64,000 bases of DNA from Lacipirellula parvula (GTDB lineage Bacteria > Planctomycetota > Planctomycetia > Pirellulales > Lacipirellulaceae). Position 1 is the first letter of the stretch; each line of letters opens with the position of its first letter. This document shows positions 1,448 to 34,285 of the stretch, in pieces. Under the pieces are notes generated by a model. The model ran no database searches. It saw only the letters and a program-made list of their open reading frames with translations, and had not been told where the DNA came from. The position numbers were made by a program, and so were the translations under genes. The DNA lies in contig NZ_AP021861.1 in NCBI RefSeq assembly GCF_009177095.1, forward strand, positions 5,438,501 to 5,502,500, given 5' to 3'.

Positions 1448-3147
1448 TCTGCTGCGTCTCCCTCGGCTTCGACTGCGGGGGTCGATTCCATCTGGTGGAT
1501 CAATTGAAAGTAATTCTTCACGCCGTCGCGAACTTGTGCGGGCACGTCTTCGCGTTCAACGAACGATTCAAACTGTCGCTTGAACTCGCGCTGCTTGGCC
1601 GCCGTGCGACGATTCGACACGCCGCTGCCTTCGTCGGCCGACTCGACCGTAGTCAGCGACGGCCCGGCGCCCTTCTGCCCTTGCAGCTGCGTCGTTTGAC
1701 CGTTGTCGACGAGCTCATCCGTCGCGTTGCGACGAGCGGTATTCGTCCCCGTACCCGCCTTCTTGCCGCCGGCGTTCGGGCTTTGGCACAGGCCGTTGCA
1801 CATGCTTTGGCAGTTGCTGCACTTTTCGCAGAGCTTGCACAGCTTCTTGTCGGCTTCGCGGCGAATGCCGAGCTTGCACAAGCCTTGGCACAGCTTGTTC
1901 AGTTGCTTATCAACCGAGGCCTGGCACGCTTGGCACTGGGATTGGGATTTGCTGTCGCACTTACCCGTCTCGCGCTCTTGGCGTTCGGCTTCGGCGAGCG
2001 ATTCATCGAGCTTCTGCACCGATGCAGCCAACTCTTCGAGATTCTCGCCCAGTTCGCCGCCCGACGATCCCGACGACGCGCCGCTCTCGCCTGAAGCGCC
2101 GCTGCCCCCCTTGGCGTCCTTCGCGGCGGCCGACTTTGAGTTCGATTGCTCGCCCGACTTCGATTCCTTCCCCTGCGACGCCGACTTGTTCGCCTTCGCC
2201 GCCGCGGCCATCCGCTGCGACGCGGCCTTCAGCTTCGCGAGTTGCTTGCGCTGTTCCGACAGCGGTTTGTTCGGCTCGGTCTGCATCGACGCCAGTTCGT
2301 CGGCCGCCTTATCGTACTTCTTCTGCTGGAGTTGTTCGCCGAGTTGCTTCGACTCGCGATCTTCCTGCAGCTTCTCCGCCGCCTTTTCGAGCAGCTGCTC
2401 GTCTTTCTTGCGTTGGATCGCCATCCGCGCCTTGTTCAGCTCGCGCTCCAGCTGGGCGTATTGCCGCAGCGCTTCCTTTTGGTCTTTGGTCGCTTCGAGT
2501 GATTCGACCATCTTGCGAAGCTTGTCGGGATCGACCAGTTCCTTCTCGAACGGATCCTTCACTTCCTCGCGAAGTTCCTCGACCATTTCCAGCAGTTCTT
2601 TGTTCGACGTCTCAGTCGCCTGCTGCACCGCTTGTTCTTGCTGCTGGCGCTGCACCACCTCATCACTCGGACCGCGCAGGCTCAACGGCAGCGCGACCGC
2701 CGTCAGCCCCGCGGCGAGCATCAGCCCGCGACGCGGCGCGCGGTAGGCGATCGCCTCGGGCGACAACTCGCCAACTTGCCGCTGCGTGTAGTTGGCCTGC
2801 AGTTCATAAAAACCGTCGCGACGCCCTTCCCGCGTGAAATGCAGATACGAAGCCACCGAATCCTTCAGCCCGTAGAAGCGGTCGACATACCGCGCCGCTT
2901 GTTCGTCGCTCAACCGATGCCAGAACCACGCCGCCGCTCCGCCGCACGCCGTGGCCAGCAACGTCGCAACGATCCAACCGCCCGGCACGGCGTAACCTTG
3001 CAGCACGTAGACCAAGCTCACTGCCGTTACCAAACCGGCGCCGGCCGCCGCCGTCCAAATAAGCGTCGTCCACAGCAGGTGGAGATTCACGCGACGCCGC
3101 ACGAAGGCGACGAACTGTTCAATAGGACCAGGGGCATGGGGAGACAT
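1444..3147 (-). CDS. Membrane coiled-coil protein with cysteine-rich segment
   Basis: A 567-residue protein. Two hydrophobic segments lie near the N-terminus (about residues 24-45 and 58-75), with a third shorter one near 145-160. The middle (about 180-330) is highly charged, Glu/Lys/Gln-rich and predicted coiled coil. A Ser/Gly/Lys-rich linker follows, then 11 cysteines between about residues 396 and 452, in CxxC, CxxxC and similar spacings. The C-terminal part is charged. It starts the MoxR-DUF58 set, sits 118 bp after the giant TPR gene, and overlaps MoxR by 4 bp. The layout resembles the DUF4175-like membrane proteins found with MoxR in planctomycetes, but I cannot assign a named family firmly. 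A role as membrane anchor or substrate of the MoxR module is inference. Confidence 0.85.
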   Translation of the reverse strand: MSPHAPGPIEQFVAFVRRRVNLHLLWTTLIWTAAAGAGLVTAVSLVYVLQGYAVPGGWIVATLLATACGGAAAWFWHRLSDEQAARYVDRFYGLKDSVASYLHFTREGRRDGFYELQANYTQRQVGELSPEAIAYRAPRRGLMLAAGLTAVALPLSLRGPSDEVVQRQQQEQAVQQATETSNKELLEMVEELREEVKDPFEKELVDPDKLRKMVESLEATKDQKEALRQYAQLERELNKARMAIQRKKDEQLLEKAAEKLQEDRESKQLGEQLQQKKYDKAADELASMQTEPNKPLSEQRKQLAKLKAASQRMAAAAKANKSASQGKESKSGEQSNSKSAAAKDAKGGSGASGESGASSGSSGGELGENLEELAASVQKLDESLAEAERQERETGKCDSKSQSQCQACQASVDKQLNKLCQGLCKLGIRREADKKLCKLCEKCSNCQSMCNGLCQSPNAGGKKAGTGTNTARRNATDELVDNGQTTQLQGQKGAGPSLTTVESADEGSGVSNRRTAAKQREFKRQFESFVEREDVPAQVRDGVKNYFQLIHQMESTPAVEAEGDAAE

Positions 3148-9200: not shown

Positions 9201-12200
9201 CCCGCCTGGAACGCCCCCAACAGCGCGAGCTGCGGGTAGCTCTCTTTGAATTTCTCCGCGATCTTCGGCGCAAACTGATCGAGTTGCGGATTGCGGCGAC
9301 CGAATTGGTTCAGCACCACCAGCGCTAGGGCCGTTTCGTCGTCTGGATTTTCCTCAAGCACCGTCGGCAGCTGCGCCATGAAATCGCCCTGATTCATGTC
9401 GACTTCCATGAGCAAATCGACGCCGCGCACCCCTTGCTGCTTCATGCTGCGGGCAATCTCCGCAGCCCCTTCCTCGTCCTGCAGCTTGGCGATCGTCACC
9501 AAGTGAGGGATCGCGAACGTCCGCAGCTGGTCGACCCGCGGCGGAACCTGCACCTTCATCTGCGGGCCGCCGCTCGACAGCGAGTAGGCCATCCCCATGC
9601 CGCGATTCTGCTGATGCATGTAGGCCTGGTAGCGATACTGCGTCGCCTGCAGCATTTCAACGGCGTCGCGCGGCGCAATCTTCGCCAATTCCTCGAACTG
9701 CGAGTGTTGCGAAATCAACTGCGTGTTCTTCTTGGCCACGTCCGGCAATTCTTCATAGTCGCCGAGCAGCGCCAGAAAATGCGCCGCCGCTTCCTTCTCG
9801 CGTCCCGCCTCCTCGCAGGCGACGCCTAGCAGGTATCGCAGCCGGTAGTCTCCCTGATGGTCGTTGATCCGCGTCGACAAGAAGTCGGCCGCCCGCTCCC
9901 ATTCCTGGATGCCGCACATCGCGTCGGCGATCGCCTCGAGCGTCCGCGGATCGCCCTTCTCGGCGTCGGCCAGTTCGAACAGAATCTCAAACCCGTCATC
10001 CGCATCGCCAAAGGTGAGATGCAGCTTCGCGATCCGCTCTTTCGTCCGGTTCGTCTTGTCGAGCGGCGCCGCCCGTTCGAGCGTCGCGATCGCCGCCTTC
10101 CAGTCGCCCTCTTGCTCTTCCACCCGCGCGATGTGGTGAAGCAACTCCAAATCGTCCGGTTTGATCTTCGCCGCCGCGGTGAGCGCCTGACGGCGTCCCT
10201 CGTAATTGTCGGCCGTGCGGTGAACTTCCGACAGCGCGAGCAGCGGCACAATCGACTGCCGATTGCTCTGCCGCCGCTCCTCGAACTGCTCGACTAGCTG
10301 AGTCAGCTTCCCTTGCTGATCGGCCAGCTTCGTCAGCTCCTGCGTCCAGCGCAACTTGCCAGGGACGTCTTCGGTCTCCTCGTACAGTTGCCAGTAAATC
10401 CGCTCGGCGTCGGCGAGGTGATCGGTCTGCGTGTACAGCTGAGCAAGCCGCGTGCGCAGATCCTCGGCGCCATCGAACTTCTGCACAGCCGATTTCAGCA
10501 CCGCGATCGCGTCGTCTTCCTTCCCCTGCGACATCATGAGGGTCGCTTCCATCGTCCACGGCGTCGTGCTGCCGGGCGAGAGCCGCTTCCATTCGTCGAT
10601 CCACTTCAGCGCTTCGTCGAGTTGGAAGTCGCGCTGGCACAACTCCACCAGCCGCCTCACGTAAATGCTTTTGCGACCGCCCGGCAGATCGAGCAACTTC
10701 CGCGTCGCATCAGCGGCCGCCGTCCAATCGCGGCGTTGGCTAAAGAGGCGAATTTGCTCGCTGACAGCCAGCAGATCGCCCTTCTCCGCAGCTTCCTTTA
10801 GGGCAGCGTCGGCGACGTCGCTGTCGCCCGCCGCTTCCAGCAGTTCAGCGAGCAAACACGTCTGCTGAATCGTCCGCTGCTTCATCTCCGCCAACCGCTT
10901 GGCAGAGTCCTCGATCTTGTCCGAACGATCGGCCGCCGCCACCGCCTGATCGAGCGCCGACTCAAGATCGGGCGTCGTCGCCGCCAGTTCGACGCGACGT
11001 TCCGTCCACGGTAGCGCGAGTTCCGGCTTCTTCAGCGCGAGCGCCGTCGTCGCCAATTGGCTGAAGTAGAGCGGTTCCTTGGCGAACTCTTGCTCACGAG
11101 CTTGCAGCAGCTTGAGCGCCGCCTCGTTTTCGTTACGCGTCGCGAGCGCCCGCGACACGTGCAGCAACTCGCTCAGCTCCGCGTCCGCGGCGAGTTCCTT
11201 CCAAATCGCCAGGGCTTCTTCTTTCTTCTCCGTCGCGTACAAGAAGGCTGCGTACGCTTCCTGAGCCGACGCTGAATCGGCGAACGTCTCGGCCATTTCC
11301 TTGTAAACGCCGGCCGCCGCATCTTTGCGCTCGAAGCGTTCCAACTGTCGCGCCGCGCGTAGGTAGGCGTACTCGCTCTTATCGGACGCTTTCAGGTATT
11401 CGGCAATCTGTGCGGTCGCCGCGTCGGTTTGCTTGTCTTCTTGCAGCAGCGTCGCCAGGCGAAACTTCAACTCACCGTCGGCTTTGTGCTGCTCGCACAG
11501 CGATTTTAGCTCTTCGATCGCCTTCTTCTTGTCGCCGATCTTCGCGAGCACTTCGATGTACTCTTCACGGTTGGCGCGGTTGCCGGGCGTGAGATCTAGA
11601 ATCTGCTTGTACGCCGCGATCGCCGGCTCGTTCTCGCCCAGCTGCACGAGCAACTGCGCATACCGCCGATGGAGCGCAATCCGTTTCGGGTGCTCTTTCA
11701 GCAATTCGTCGTAGTGGGTCTTCAGCTGCGCGAGGCTATCCTCGCGGCGGAACAACTGCTCGGTCTGCGCGAGAATTTCCTGCTCAAGCCAGCTCTCGTG
11801 GCCCACCTCGGCCAGCGCCGTCGAATACGCCTTGAGCGCTTCGGGCCGCTTGCCGCCGCGTTGGTGGATATCGCCCAAACGCAGCCGCCGCGTCACCGCC
11901 AGATAGGGATCCTTCGTTTTCGCCAGCAGCGTTTCATTGAGCTTCGCCGCTTGCTCGAACAACCCTTCGTCGATGTGCAGCTCAATCAAATCCTCCGCCA
12001 GCTCTTCATCCTTCGGATTCGCGGCGAGAAGTTCGTTCCACACCTTGAGCGCGTCGTCGACCTTGCGATTGCGCACCAGCAACCGGCCCAGCAGCTTGTC
12101 GACCTGCACCTGCAGCTTCGCCTCAGGCTTGAGTTCCCGCGCTTTCTGCAAGTCGGCGATGGCCGCGTCGAAATCGAGCGTCCGCGCCTCGATCACCGCC

Positions 12201-30443: not shown

Positions 30444-32195
30444 ATGTCGCCCGACGCCCCCGCTGGCAACGATAAGACCGCCTCGCGCAACTTCATTCAG
30501 CAGATCATCGACGCCGACCGCGCCGCCGGAAAGAACGCCGGCCGCGTCCACACGCGCTTCCCGCCCGAGCCGAACGGCTACCTCCACATCGGCCACGCGA
30601 AAAGCATCTGCTTGAACTTCGGCCTCGCGAAGGAATTCGGCGGCAAGTTCAACTTGCGGTTCGACGACACGAACCCGGCGAAAGAGGAACAGGAGTATGT
30701 CGATTCGATCGTCGACGATGTGAACTGGTTGATCGCTGGGTTCGGGGAAACGGAAGGGTTCAGGGTTCAGGGTTCAGCAAAGACATCTTCAACTGAACCC
30801 TCTCTCCTGAACCCTGAACCCTTTTTTGCGTCCGACTACTTCGATCAGCTCTATGCCTGGGCGGTCCAGTTGATCAAAGACGGCAAGGCGTACGTTTGCG
30901 ATCTCACCGCCGAGCAAATGCGCGAGTACCGCGGCTCGCTCACCGCGCCGGGCAAAGACAGCCCCAACCGCAATCGTACCGTTGCGGAGAATCTCGATCT
31001 GTTCGAGCAGATGCGGGCTGGCAAGTTCGCAGACGCCAGTCGCACGCTTCGCGCGAAGATCGACATGGCGTCGCCGAACATCAACATGCGCGACCCGGTG
31101 CTCTACCGCATCAAGCGGGCCCACCACCATCGCACGGGCGACAAGTGGTGCATCTACCCGTCGTACGACTACACCCACGGCCAAAGCGATTCGATCGAAG
31201 GGATCACCCATTCGATCTGCACGCTTGAATTCGAAAACCATCGCCCGCTGTACGATTGGTTCTGCCGCGAGCTCGGCATCCACCATCCGCAGCAGATTGA
31301 ATTCGCCCGCCTCAACCTCACCTACGCGGTGATGAGCAAGCGGAAGCTGCTGCAACTGGTCCAAGAGAAGCACGTCACCGGCTGGGACGACCCGCGGATG
31401 CTCACCATCCGCGGCCTGCGCCGCCGCGGCTATACCCCGGAGGCGATGCGGGCGTTCTGCGAACGGATCGGCGTCGCGAAGTTCAACAGCACGATCGACA
31501 TGGCGTGGCTTGAGGACGCCATCCGCGAAGACCTCAACGAACGCGCCCCGCGGGCGATGGGCGTGTTGCGGCCGCTGAAGGTCGTGCTCACCAACTTGAA
31601 GGAAGGCGAAACGATCGAACTCGATGCGCCGAACCATCCGCAAAAGCCGGAGATGGGCTCGCGCAAGATCCCGCTGACCCGCGAGATCTATATCGAGCAG
31701 GAAGACTTCATGGAAGAAGCCCCCAAGAAGTTCTTCCGTTTGAAGCCCGAAGGCGAAGTCCGCCTCCGCTGCGCCGGCATCATCAAGTGCGACGAAGTAG
31801 TAAAAGACGCCGCGGGCAAAGTGACCGAGCTCCGCTGCACATTCGATCCTGATCACTCCCGCAAGGTGAAGGGAACGATCCACTGGGTCTCGGCGCCCAA
31901 TGCGCTCACCGCCGAGGTCCGACTGTACGATCACCTATTCGGCGTCGAGAACCCAGACAACGCCCCCGAGGGGAAGACGTTCCTCGACAACCTCAATCCG
32001 AACTCGCTGGAGATTCTCAAGGACGCGAAGCTCGAGCCATCGTTGAAAAAGGCGAAGCCGGGCACAAGCTTCCAGTTCGAACGGACGGGATACTTCTACG
32101 TCGACCCCGTCGATTCGAAGCCGGGGCAACCAGTCTTTAATCGCACCTCGACGCTACGAGACAGTTGGACCAAAGAACAAGGAACCCCGGCGTAG
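30444..32195 (+). CDS. glnS: Glutaminyl-tRNA synthetase with in-frame repeat insertion
   Basis: 583 residues. The class I signature HIGH is at 48-51 ([14 protein letters not shown]) and KMSKS is represented by VMSKRKL near residue 297. The catalytic core, anticodon-binding beta-barrels and C-terminal end (RTSTLRDSW) are complete, so the enzyme should charge tRNA-Gln. The oddity is an extra stretch at about 104-127 (including [20 protein letters not shown]), encoded by a palindromic repeat at 30754-30823. In other GlnRS only some seven residues separate the preceding GF from the SSDYF-like motif, here ASDYF at about 129-133. The insert keeps frame and adds about 20 residues. The normal motifs resume directly after. 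Confidence 0.97.
30754..30823. repeat. GGGTTCAG/CTGAACCC palindromic repeat inside glnS
   Basis: Arms AAGGGTTCAGGGTTCAG at 30754-30770 and its exact reverse complement at 30807-30823 (17 bp each), with inner GGTTCAG (30771-30777) matching CTGAACC (30793-30799) around a 15-nt loop. It is in frame with glnS. Confidence 0.92.
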
Positions 32196-32210
32196 ACCGC
32201 TTAAGCGGTC
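32195..32210. repeat. Perfect 16-bp palindrome after glnS
   Basis: GACCGCTTAAGCGGTC begins at the last base of the glnS stop codon; no T-run follows, so it is not a classical Rho-independent terminator. The 28-bp gap separates glnS from the convergent transposase gene. Confidence 0.7.
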
Positions 32211-32223
32211 CACGCCCCCACGT

Positions 32224-32814
32224 TCACTTAGGCTTCTTCAAATAACGCTTATAAGGAACCTCTTCCATAAACGCCTTGAGTTGATGTGAGCGCCGAATCG
32301 CCAGCTCCAACTCAACGTTCACGCGCGTATGCGCATACTCGCGCCAATCCTGCGCCACCCCATGCCGCACCGCTTGCGTCAGCGTGTAGCGATACGCCCG
32401 CCGCGCCTGCAGCTCGTCGCGAATGCACCCATCGGAGTACTCCTTGTACTTCACGTCGCGCCAAAACTCCGCGCGACGTGCCGGCAGCAAATCGTTCACG
32501 AGCTTCGCCACCGATCCATGCACGCGCTGCATCATCTTCGATAGCTGCGACCCCTCGCGCAGATACCCCAACGTGTGATAGTGGTTATCGAGTAGCGAAG
32601 TCACCCACGGCGTGAAACCGCACTCCGCTGTGTAGTGCGCGAACCGATCCCAAAAGATCTCCTTCGCACGCTCGCTGGCAATCGCGGGAAACTGATCGCG
32701 ACAGCGGGCCGTGATGAAGTAGACCTGATTGTCGACCAGCCAGTGCTCATACCGATGCTCGCCGTGATGAACGGGATTCTCGCTGCGAGAGATCTTTTTG
32801 ATCGGCTTCCCCAT
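32224..32814 (-). CDS. REP-associated tyrosine transposase (RAYT, Y1 family)
   Basis: 196 residues from the ATG at 32814 (an ATG at 32826 is also in frame; neither has a clear ribosome-binding site). The HUH-type metal site appears as NHYHTLG (His78, His80, with Tyr in place of the usual Val/Ile), and the catalytic Tyr is one of those in RAYRYTLTQAVRHG (Tyr141 or Tyr143). Overall length and layout match RAYT proteins related to IS200/IS605 transposases, which are linked with bacterial REP palindromes. It stands alone without a typical IS boundary. It might mobilise one of the palindromic repeats of this window, which is inference. Confidence 0.9.
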   Translation of the reverse strand: MGKPIKKISRSENPVHHGEHRYEHWLVDNQVYFITARCRDQFPAIASERAKEIFWDRFAHYTAECGFTPWVTSLLDNHYHTLGYLREGSQLSKMMQRVHGSVAKLVNDLLPARRAEFWRDVKYKEYSDGCIRDELQARRAYRYTLTQAVRHGVAQDWREYAHTRVNVELELAIRRSHQLKAFMEEVPYKRYLKKPK

Positions 32815-32962
32815 GCGAAGCAGCATAACACAACAATTAACTAGACATTTCACAGGAAAGCGCCTGGCCGGAAAAATTCCTTGCTTTTCGGCTCTCAATA
32901 GAGGACGATGTCGTCGGCTCAAACGAACGCCCATTCAACCTCCTCGCGAAGCGTTTCCAAAC

Positions 32963-34285
32963 ATGTCTCCTCTCCGCGCATTCCCGACGTTTCATCTCTC
33001 GCTCTGCCTGACGCTGGCTCTTTCGACGGCGTTCGCCCCGTCGCTCGGCATCGCTCAAGAGGCCGCCGCACGCCCCGCTGCGTCAGCCTCTGAGAGCTCC
33101 GCAAATTTGGAGTACGTCATCCCGAGCGCCGTCGTGGTGCTGATCGCGAAGCCTGAGCAGATTCTCAAGTCTTCCGCGGCGGAATTATTCCCCATCGAGA
33201 TCTTGCAAGCAGCGTCGATCCAAGAAACCGGTCTCGATCCGCTTGAAGCCAGCGAAGTGGTGCTCTCCGTTTCGCCGCCGATCGCGGGACCGCCGAGCTA
33301 CTCGTTGCTAGCGACGTTTAACGACGACGCCACCCTCAAGGCTAGCGCGATCGCGCGGCACACGGAGCAGACGACGCTCGCCGACAAGATCGTCGAAATC
33401 TACAATGGCGTGCGGGAGGCGCTTTCCGACAAGATCGCTGAACAGGCTCGCCAAGCGCTCGCCAGCGACGATCCCATCCAACAAGCTGCCGGACGCTACT
33501 CGCAACGTATGCAGAAGAAGTGGGACGCCGTGCCGGGCCTCGTGCAGGAAGGCGACCGCATCGTTCTGTTTCGAGCCGATCTGACCAAGTCTGAAGGCAA
33601 CCAACTCGTCTACGTCGCCACGGTCGGAACTCTCGTCGGCTTGCTACTGCCGGCGGTCCAAGCGGCGCGCGAAGCCGCCCGGCGAAACCAAGCGATGAAC
33701 AACATGAAGCAAATCGTGCTCGGCATGTACAACTACGAGTCCGCAAAGGCGGCGTTTCCGACCGATGTGAAACTCGACGCGGACGGCAAGCCGCTCCTCA
33801 GCTGGCGCGTCCTCATCCTTCCGTACATCGAAGAGTATGAGCTTTACAAGCAGTTCCACCTGGACGAGCCGTGGGATAGCCCGCACAACAAGACGCTGAT
33901 TTCCAAGATGCCGCCGGTTTTTTTGGATCCCAGCTCCAAGCTGACGCCGGCTGACGGCAAAACGTCGTACCTCGGCGTGAAAGGGGATGCCTACTTTTTC
34001 AATGGTTCGGCCAAAGGCCGCAGCTTCTCGAGCGTGCGCGACGGCACCTCCAACACGATTGCCTTCGTGCAAGTCGACGACGAAGCAGCCGTCACCTGGA
34101 CGAAGCCGCAAGATTGGACGCCGAGCGAATCCGATTTGCTGAAGCCGTTCGACGGCCCGCACCCTGGCGGGTTCTTCGCCGGCTTCTGCGACGGTCACAT
34201 TAGCTTTATCAGTTCGTCGATTGACCCAACGATGCTGCGTGCACTGCTGACGGCTAACGGCGGAGAAGTTATCGAATCGCGGTGA
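32963..34285 (+). CDS. Secreted protein with an internal DUF1559-like domain
   Basis: 440 residues from the ATG at 32963, which opens a signal peptide (RAFPTFHLSLCLTLALSTAF, then ASLGIAQ-E). Residues about 45-225 form a unique N-terminal region with a helical, Gln/Ala-rich end. A DUF1559-like block then begins at about 228: VGTLVGLLLPAVQAAREAAR and NNMKQIVLGMYNYESAK, and continues to SSVRDGTSNTIAFVQ and GFCDGHISFISSSIDPTMLR. The hydrophobic prepilin helix has been reduced and sits mid-protein, so processing by a prepilin peptidase is unlikely. It is therefore a variant rather than a pilin-like DUF1559 protein. Function unknown. Confidence 0.88.
   Translation: MSPLRAFPTFHLSLCLTLALSTAFAPSLGIAQEAAARPAASASESSANLEYVIPSAVVVLIAKPEQILKSSAAELFPIEILQAASIQETGLDPLEASEVVLSVSPPIAGPPSYSLLATFNDDATLKASAIARHTEQTTLADKIVEIYNGVREALSDKIAEQARQALASDDPIQQAAGRYSQRMQKKWDAVPGLVQEGDRIVLFRADLTKSEGNQLVYVATVGTLVGLLLPAVQAAREAARRNQAMNNMKQIVLGMYNYESAKAAFPTDVKLDADGKPLLSWRVLILPYIEEYELYKQFHLDEPWDSPHNKTLISKMPPVFLDPSSKLTPADGKTSYLGVKGDAYFFNGSAKGRSFSSVRDGTSNTIAFVQVDDEAAVTWTKPQDWTPSESDLLKPFDGPHPGGFFAGFCDGHISFISSSIDPTMLRALLTANGGEVIESR

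Follow-up and report, generated by a model that had tools for sequence, protein, structure and literature searches.

An in-frame inverted heptad array in glnS of Lacipirellula parvula, probably one of a dispersed family whose 7-nt word differs between genomes

The window, the 64,000-nt stretch of DNA that was analysed, covers positions 5438501-5502500 of the one-contig, 6,922,258-bp (6.92 Mb) genome of Lacipirellula parvula (G000; other G numbers denote the compared genomes). On its forward strand an ORF at 30444..32195 encodes glutaminyl-tRNA synthetase (GlnRS, gene glnS, 583 aa), as shown by its score against TIGR00440 (724.8 bits, cut-off 425.8) and by matches to GlnRS entries in the PDB; the modelled fold also matches GlnRS structures and is otherwise ordinary. 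Directly 3' of glnS, in convergent orientation (32224-32934, reverse strand), lies a gene resembling those for REP-associated tyrosine transposases (RAYT). It matches NF047646 at 65.3 bits, which is below the cut-off of 80, and a Pfam scan of its protein gave no match.

glnS is host to an inverted array of 7-nt units (heptads) at 30754..30823, recognised on the forward strand from a repeat search, the reading frame and the RNA fold. The left arm (30754..30777, forward strand) consists of AA, three copies of GGGTTCA and a G; it is G-rich on the coding strand and its three frames are open. The right arm, CCTGAACCCTGAACCCTT (30806..30823, forward strand), was found by the repeat search to be 100% complementary to 30754-30771, giving two arms of 18 bp each with a spacer of 34 nt. 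A third 7-mer prolongs the left arm as far as 30777 and, in the predicted fold, pairs with an inner right copy, CTGAACCCT (30793..30801, forward strand). The initial annotation had described a palindromic element with perfect 17-bp arms: the inverted repeat is real and its pairing is perfect, the arms are 18 bp long, and what they form is an array of heptads, not a palindrome of fixed sequence. A 17-mer of the arm, searched with up to three mismatches, matched three times in the window, each time within the glnS element (0.05 matches expected from shuffles). The 70-nt RNA of the element has a predicted folding energy of -39.8 kcal/mol (z -7.0), equalled by 0 of 200 shuffles.

No stop interrupts the 583-aa frame across the element, which would encode GFRVQGS...LNPEP, and the right arm stops just before the in-frame TGA of a full third repeat. 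The palindromic repeat had been said to lie in frame within glnS and to add about 20 residues; the uninterrupted ORF and its TIGR00440 score bear out the former, and the insert lengthens the protein by a net 22 residues (66 bp). In the GlnRS model, which is of moderate confidence (mean pLDDT 77.5, several further low segments), the insert (residues 107-130) has pLDDT below 50 and is placed in a loop between helices 83-98 and 133-145, which fits the suggestion that a surface loop tolerates it.

The glnS site was compared in 30 retrieved loci; a GluRS-like one (L060) was excluded and a fragment (L058) was unreadable, leaving 28, the locus from L. parvula included. RFDDTNP and SDYF are 62 residues apart in G000 as against 39-40 in 25 of these 28 loci, and the other two carriers of an insert are G003 (68 residues; +28, 84 bp) and G016 (64 residues; +24, 72 bp). 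Absence of the segment from relatives had been predicted, and the insert is indeed the minority state at glnS among them. A query with the loop region matched 35 of 43 family genomes (G000 included) and only G000, G003 and G016 aligned across the insert. G001 and G005, which have the same genus code, contain glnS without the insert; glnS was not found in several of the genomes searched, e.g. G002 and G004, also of that genus code. The closest named GlnRS match, among the best 80 listed from the contig scan, was from Aeoliella straminimaris (73%), whose genus is placed in the family Lacipirellulaceae in the title of PMC7717034. Tandem repeats and hairpins can be assembled wrongly, and a decaying gene is a further conceivable reading. 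The two further genomes with inserts at the same position make an assembly error very unlikely (shared contamination aside), the 583-aa frame is intact and the remaining enzyme is well conserved, so that the chance of either is negligible.

In a GlnRS tree (35 rows, loop removed, quick method, SH-aLRT support only) G016 stood apart from G000 and G003, and the well-supported branches need at least two changes, which tells against a single vertical origin of the insert. The motif NWLIAxFGET just upstream of the arm is common to G016, G000 and G003, with diverged synonymous sites. As the tree separates G016 and yet the motif is shared, old transfer of the segment, independent insertion or several losses may each account for the pattern. 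Third positions of shared residues are identical between G000 and G016 at 10/11 codons in the arms against 226/408 elsewhere (p=0.016, in a test on 12 codons chosen after the data had been seen). The arms thus appear to keep their DNA spelling between the two genes, and the loops to vary far more than the arms. G016 glnS contains a second in-frame inverted heptad array with the word GGTCGAG (L036 ~3015-3125), which adds 29 alignment columns between the residues matching query 507 and 508.

A search of the whole genome with GGGTTCAGGGTTCA, allowing at most one mismatch, gave 97 occurrences, and the reversed control gave none. These GGGTTCA-type hits group into 55 clusters, three of them further in-frame cases, so the element does occur elsewhere in the genome, as the initial annotation had supposed. 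The usual arm, seen at many sites, is AGGGTTC AGGtgtt GGGGTTC AGGGTTC AGG, in which the second heptad is a variant, and in clusters with both arms the arms converge. The glnS segment very likely belongs to a family of heptad arrays scattered over the genome, whose arms repeat a 7-nt word some 2-4 times in tandem and frequently form an inverted pair around a variable loop, a judgement made jointly with that on translation and spread below.

Tandem runs were counted by period in 400-kb samples of G000 and G003, the latter sample being non-random since it was picked near G000 sites. In the intergenic part of the G000 sample, periods 7, 14 and 21 gave 14, 14 and 16 runs, other periods 0-4 and shuffled sequence 0-1; for G003 the figures were 16, 18 and 11, 0-8 and 0-3 respectively. 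As period 7 and its multiples dominate the intergenic runs in both sampled genomes, it is the length of the unit, and not its spelling, that is constant. A scan for inverted arrays in G003 gave 24 with period 7, 12 with period 8 and 14 with period 9, a mild specificity for period 7 in counts that may be inflated by a masked stretch; the corresponding numbers in the window were 1, 1 and 2.

Placed against gene calls, 78 arms were found. Nine of them, at six loci, lie within called ORFs, and two of these loci are overlaps at gene ends. The calls were home-made by codon scoring and the distances to gene ends are therefore approximate. For the remaining arms, the nearest gene end is a median 24 bp away from the outer side (within 50 bp for 42/68) and from the inner side 103.5 bp (8/68); the outer side is the closer of the two in 51/67 arms (p=2e-5). 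On the sense strand, C-rich arms are found just 5' of starts and G-rich arms just 3' of stop codons. This polarity, together with the strong predicted hairpins, is what might be expected of a functional regulatory element, be it an RNA hairpin, a G-quadruplex or a protein-binding array, whose copy in glnS would be kept for its function, for example in slowing translation. Rehm et al. (PMC4692102), in the text available, report this polarity too, and also that four G-tracts are preferred. However, words poor in G-tracts, such as GAATGAC, share the architecture, the glnS array is absent in most relatives, and G004 (placed by mnmG alone) lacks an mnmG array that its nearest kin possess. The idea of a regulatory element is therefore considered unlikely, and quadruplexes in particular are insufficient as a general reason because GAATGAC-type arrays have the same layout.

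Four clusters lie in frame within ORFs, namely in glnS, mnmG, gcvPB and an RNase HII-like gene, in agreement with the early proposal of a repeat family that inserts while keeping the frame. The arrays are EGSEVGVQGSGNTDSSSLNPEP in mnmG, whose product was confirmed as MnmG (816.2 bits, cut-off 524.85), and EGSGFSGQGSGNASTLNPEP in gcvPB, likewise confirmed (679.5 bits, cut-off 441). The fourth gene carries the C-rich arm only, and its name is based on a weak match over 25 residues (27.2 bits, Pfam cut-off 25.8), with an NCBIfam score under the cut-off. The coding part of an even sample of G000 contained 3 period-7 runs in 284 kb against 0-2 for other periods, none of them array-like. Thus there is no clear excess of period 7 in coding DNA and in-frame arrays must be rare.

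How such arrays fit into genes can be reasoned from the repeat unit. As 7 and 3 have no common factor (7 x 3 = 21 nt), a tandem 7-mer encodes one 7-residue cycle in every frame. By its sequence the G-rich arm reads GFRVQGS and is free of stops in all frames. Perfect repeats of TGAACCC, on the other strand, read LNPEP and then TGA, with one TGA per 21 nt, so that a C-rich arm within a gene has to be short or to contain variants such as CGAACCC. In gcvPB several heptads are indeed CGAACCC, eliminating TGA. It also follows that the total length of an intragenic array must be a multiple of three.

The alignments of the gcvPB and mnmG sites comprised the best 30 loci per gene, drawn from 39 (gcvPB) and 42 (mnmG) matching genomes among 43. 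In both genes many relatives have a period-7 array in a loop at one position, and the words differ by genome: for gcvPB they are GGGTTCA (G000, G005), GGAGTCA (G003), GAGTTGC (G001, G002), GGTCGAG (G016), GTTGAGT (G044) and others, and for mnmG GGGTTCA, GAATGAC and others. The gcvPB loop ranges from 12 residues (G053, G039, G009, G045, G019) to 44. Loops shorter than 60 bp are found in 10/30 gcvPB and 13/30 mnmG loci. Among those of at least 60 bp, the self-match at lag 7 was significant against codon shuffles (p<=0.01) in 16/20 for gcvPB and 10/17 for mnmG, the remaining 4/20 and 7/17 lacking significant period 7; the mean lag-7 match was 0.451 and 0.434 respectively, as against 0.24-0.32 at the other lags from 4 to 12. 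In 12/20 and 6/17 of the same loops the inverted repeat was better than in at least 99/100 base shuffles. It was not exceptional in the mnmG loop of G003, where 27/100 shuffles were as good; some loops are one-armed (G007, G021), and in G010 the left and right words differ.

The GAATGAC arrays in the mnmG loops of G002, G022, G040 and G057 (L312, L331, L327, L324) encode peptides such as NDEARMTND...RHS. Peptides of this type may occur in database proteins as repeat-encoded stretches.

Direct comparison of G000 with G003 showed different words in gcvPB, at one intergenic site and twice within the RNase HII-like gene, and the same word in glnS, in mnmG and at some intergenic sites. At two intergenic sites compared (L209, L210) G003 had no such array. 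Length differences of one heptad at sites that are otherwise similar point to slippage. One coding site is thus spelled with different 7-mer words in different genomes, and its position and layout can persist when the word does not. Close to where the RNase HII-like gene begins, AAGCCAG/AGGTCAG heptads are present in G000 and GGGTTCA in G003 (L231 ~725-860, L276 ~9300-9430); both arrays run on into a common sequence, GCGAGCCGGGG..., which is present at further sites.

The distribution of four words was determined as counts of exact 14-mer pairs in 39 genomes, that of L. parvula included. GGAGTCA gave 22 pairs in G003, at 14 places of which three are sites compared above, and none in G000, and was present in 4/39 genomes. 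GGTCGAG gave 36 pairs in G016 (~25 places) and none in G000; of the 38 genomes besides G016, 5 had it, with 11 pairs between them. This word had been picked from the gcvPB loop of G016 before counting, and its reversed control gave 5 overall and 0 in G016. GAATGAC was found in 17/39 genomes and GGGTTCA in 11/39. Two of the four words, GGAGTCA and GGTCGAG, are therefore concentrated in their carrier genome, and GAATGAC and GGGTTCA are spread more broadly.

Two other occurrences of GGGTTCA were recorded. G027, a distant member of the same order, contains 793 exact pairs in long tandem runs (reversed control 2). In G016, GGGTTCA arrays lie between genes at L245 and L249 and occupy the space 5' of a start; judging by their ends, the flanking genes may be ribosomal-protein genes (rplF, rpsK, rpsD).

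The possibility that the arrays are transposase-dependent palindromic elements of REP/MITE type, mobilised for instance by the RAYT-like protein encoded next to glnS, is suggested by the NF047646 match of that neighbour, although this is below the cut-off, and by the presence of five RAYT-like matches in the genome. Their numbers do not, however, run in parallel in other genomes: G028 has 31 GGGTTCA pairs and no RAYT, and G017 has 12 RAYT and no GGGTTCA pairs. Heptad runs were seen at only 2 of the 12 RAYT loci examined (from 12 of 35 matching genomes, G000 not among them) and were of other words, and there are none at 31900-33300 of the window. The alignments of G000 with G003 show no obvious target duplication, clean empty sites being few. 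GGGTTCA copies, the copies counted here, were neither linked to RAYT genes nor found to follow them in number, as members of a REP/RAYT system would be. With copy numbers unrelated and RAYT flanks poor in heptads, mobilisation by RAYT was dropped as the leading idea; transposase dependence is judged very unlikely, and the adjacent gene does not look linked to the array.

The preferred explanation is instead that arms would be copied between sites by template switching during replication or by gene conversion, which would spread and homogenise the words, with 7-nt slippage acting on top of this copying; no dedicated transposase was identified for such a process. The array in glnS would be translated as a disordered surface loop and would probably be near-neutral for the enzyme. 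A local origin, in which 7-nt slippage and the correction of quasi-palindromes build each array where it stands with no copying between sites, would account for the arrays that differ by one heptad between G000 and G003, for loops that are much more variable than arms and for a common property that is period 7 and not the word. It does not explain why dozens of unlinked sites in a genome have one word, often with the same variant second heptad, or why certain words are largely restricted to a single genome. Local processes alone are thus insufficient and their sole action is quite unlikely; one spelling across dozens of sites calls for copying between sites and so favours template switching or conversion. 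Taken as a whole, the explanation by a dispersed heptad family, word turnover, frame logic, a translated loop and inter-site copying is assigned a probability of about 0.82.

A far bolder extension of the copying explanation can be put forward only tentatively and is, in our estimation, improbable. Related planctomycetes may keep a conserved set of sites, some of them in essential genes, at which the inverted arrays of heptads are respelled from time to time with a new word specific to the lineage by a trans-acting, architecture-dependent and largely sequence-indifferent copying process; glnS would be one such site, and the proteins would be forced to tolerate a changing peptide.

The finding of different words in one coding loop across genera makes it possible to map the spread and replacement of words on a tree and to test them. 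The frame-independent cycle of 7 x 3 = 21 nt provides a simple reason for the entry of arrays into genes in any frame, and hypervariable loops of conserved enzymes may reflect turnover of DNA repeats and not protein adaptation.

Several of the individual features are already known from the available parts of the literature: heptamer repeats, inverted pairs and gene-end polarity in Xanthomonas and Nostoc, replacement of repeat classes in the Nostoc trnL stem, and in-frame palindromes in Rickettsia. A limited literature search found neither these features in combination nor word replacement at orthologous coding sites, and neither in-frame heptad arrays nor heptanucleotide repeats in planctomycetes; the available text of PMC6749651 mentions heptamer-derived satellites just generally.

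The likeness to Rickettsia palindromic elements drawn by the initial annotation holds for behaviour and not for kinship. According to the available part of a review (PMC10969869) these are palindromes inserted in frame into unrelated metabolic genes, as is seen here. They are, however, ~150 bp long and encode a conserved peptide, whereas the glnS inserts of the three genomes are heptad-periodic and amount to 66-84 bp net, and the peptide at gcvPB and mnmG varies with the word. The TAACTGA repeats of Beggiatoaceae (MacGregor 2015, PMC4679880) are similar in that, as described in the text available, 7-nt repeats lie just 5' of starts, some are in ORFs and stops restrict the coding orientation, as here. 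Unlike the present arrays they have one word and are nearly all direct (169 sets, one indirect), and their intragenic cases concern mainly protein ends or hypothetical proteins. A precedent for word replacement is provided by the P6b stem of the trnL group I intron of Nostoc, in which, in the available text of Kaasalainen et al. (2015, PMC4476775), Class II 7-nt repeats have repeatedly been replaced by Class I at one site. That is a single untranslated intron locus, whereas many sites genome-wide, several of them coding, are involved here.

The closest kind are the GGGNATC heptamers of Xanthomonas and Nostoc (Rehm et al. 2015, PMC4692102), which in the part of that paper available are, like the present arrays, G-rich tandem 7-nt units that are dispersed, mostly intergenic and arranged in convergent inverted pairs; their role and mechanism are stated there not to be known. 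Their polarity, with the G-rich strand sense after stops and antisense before starts, corresponds to that found here for the 51/67 arms with the closer outer side and the 42/68 within 50 bp. In Xanthomonas 7-11% of the repeats are given as intragenic, at least partly overlapping ORFs. The word itself is different, those found here being GGGTTCA, GGAGTCA, GAATGAC, GGTCGAG and others. Compared with the GGGNATC repeats, as far as the available text describes them, several words coexist in the present case, some of them poor in G-tracts, the words differ between relatives at orthologous sites, and the arrays lie in frame within conserved housekeeping genes.
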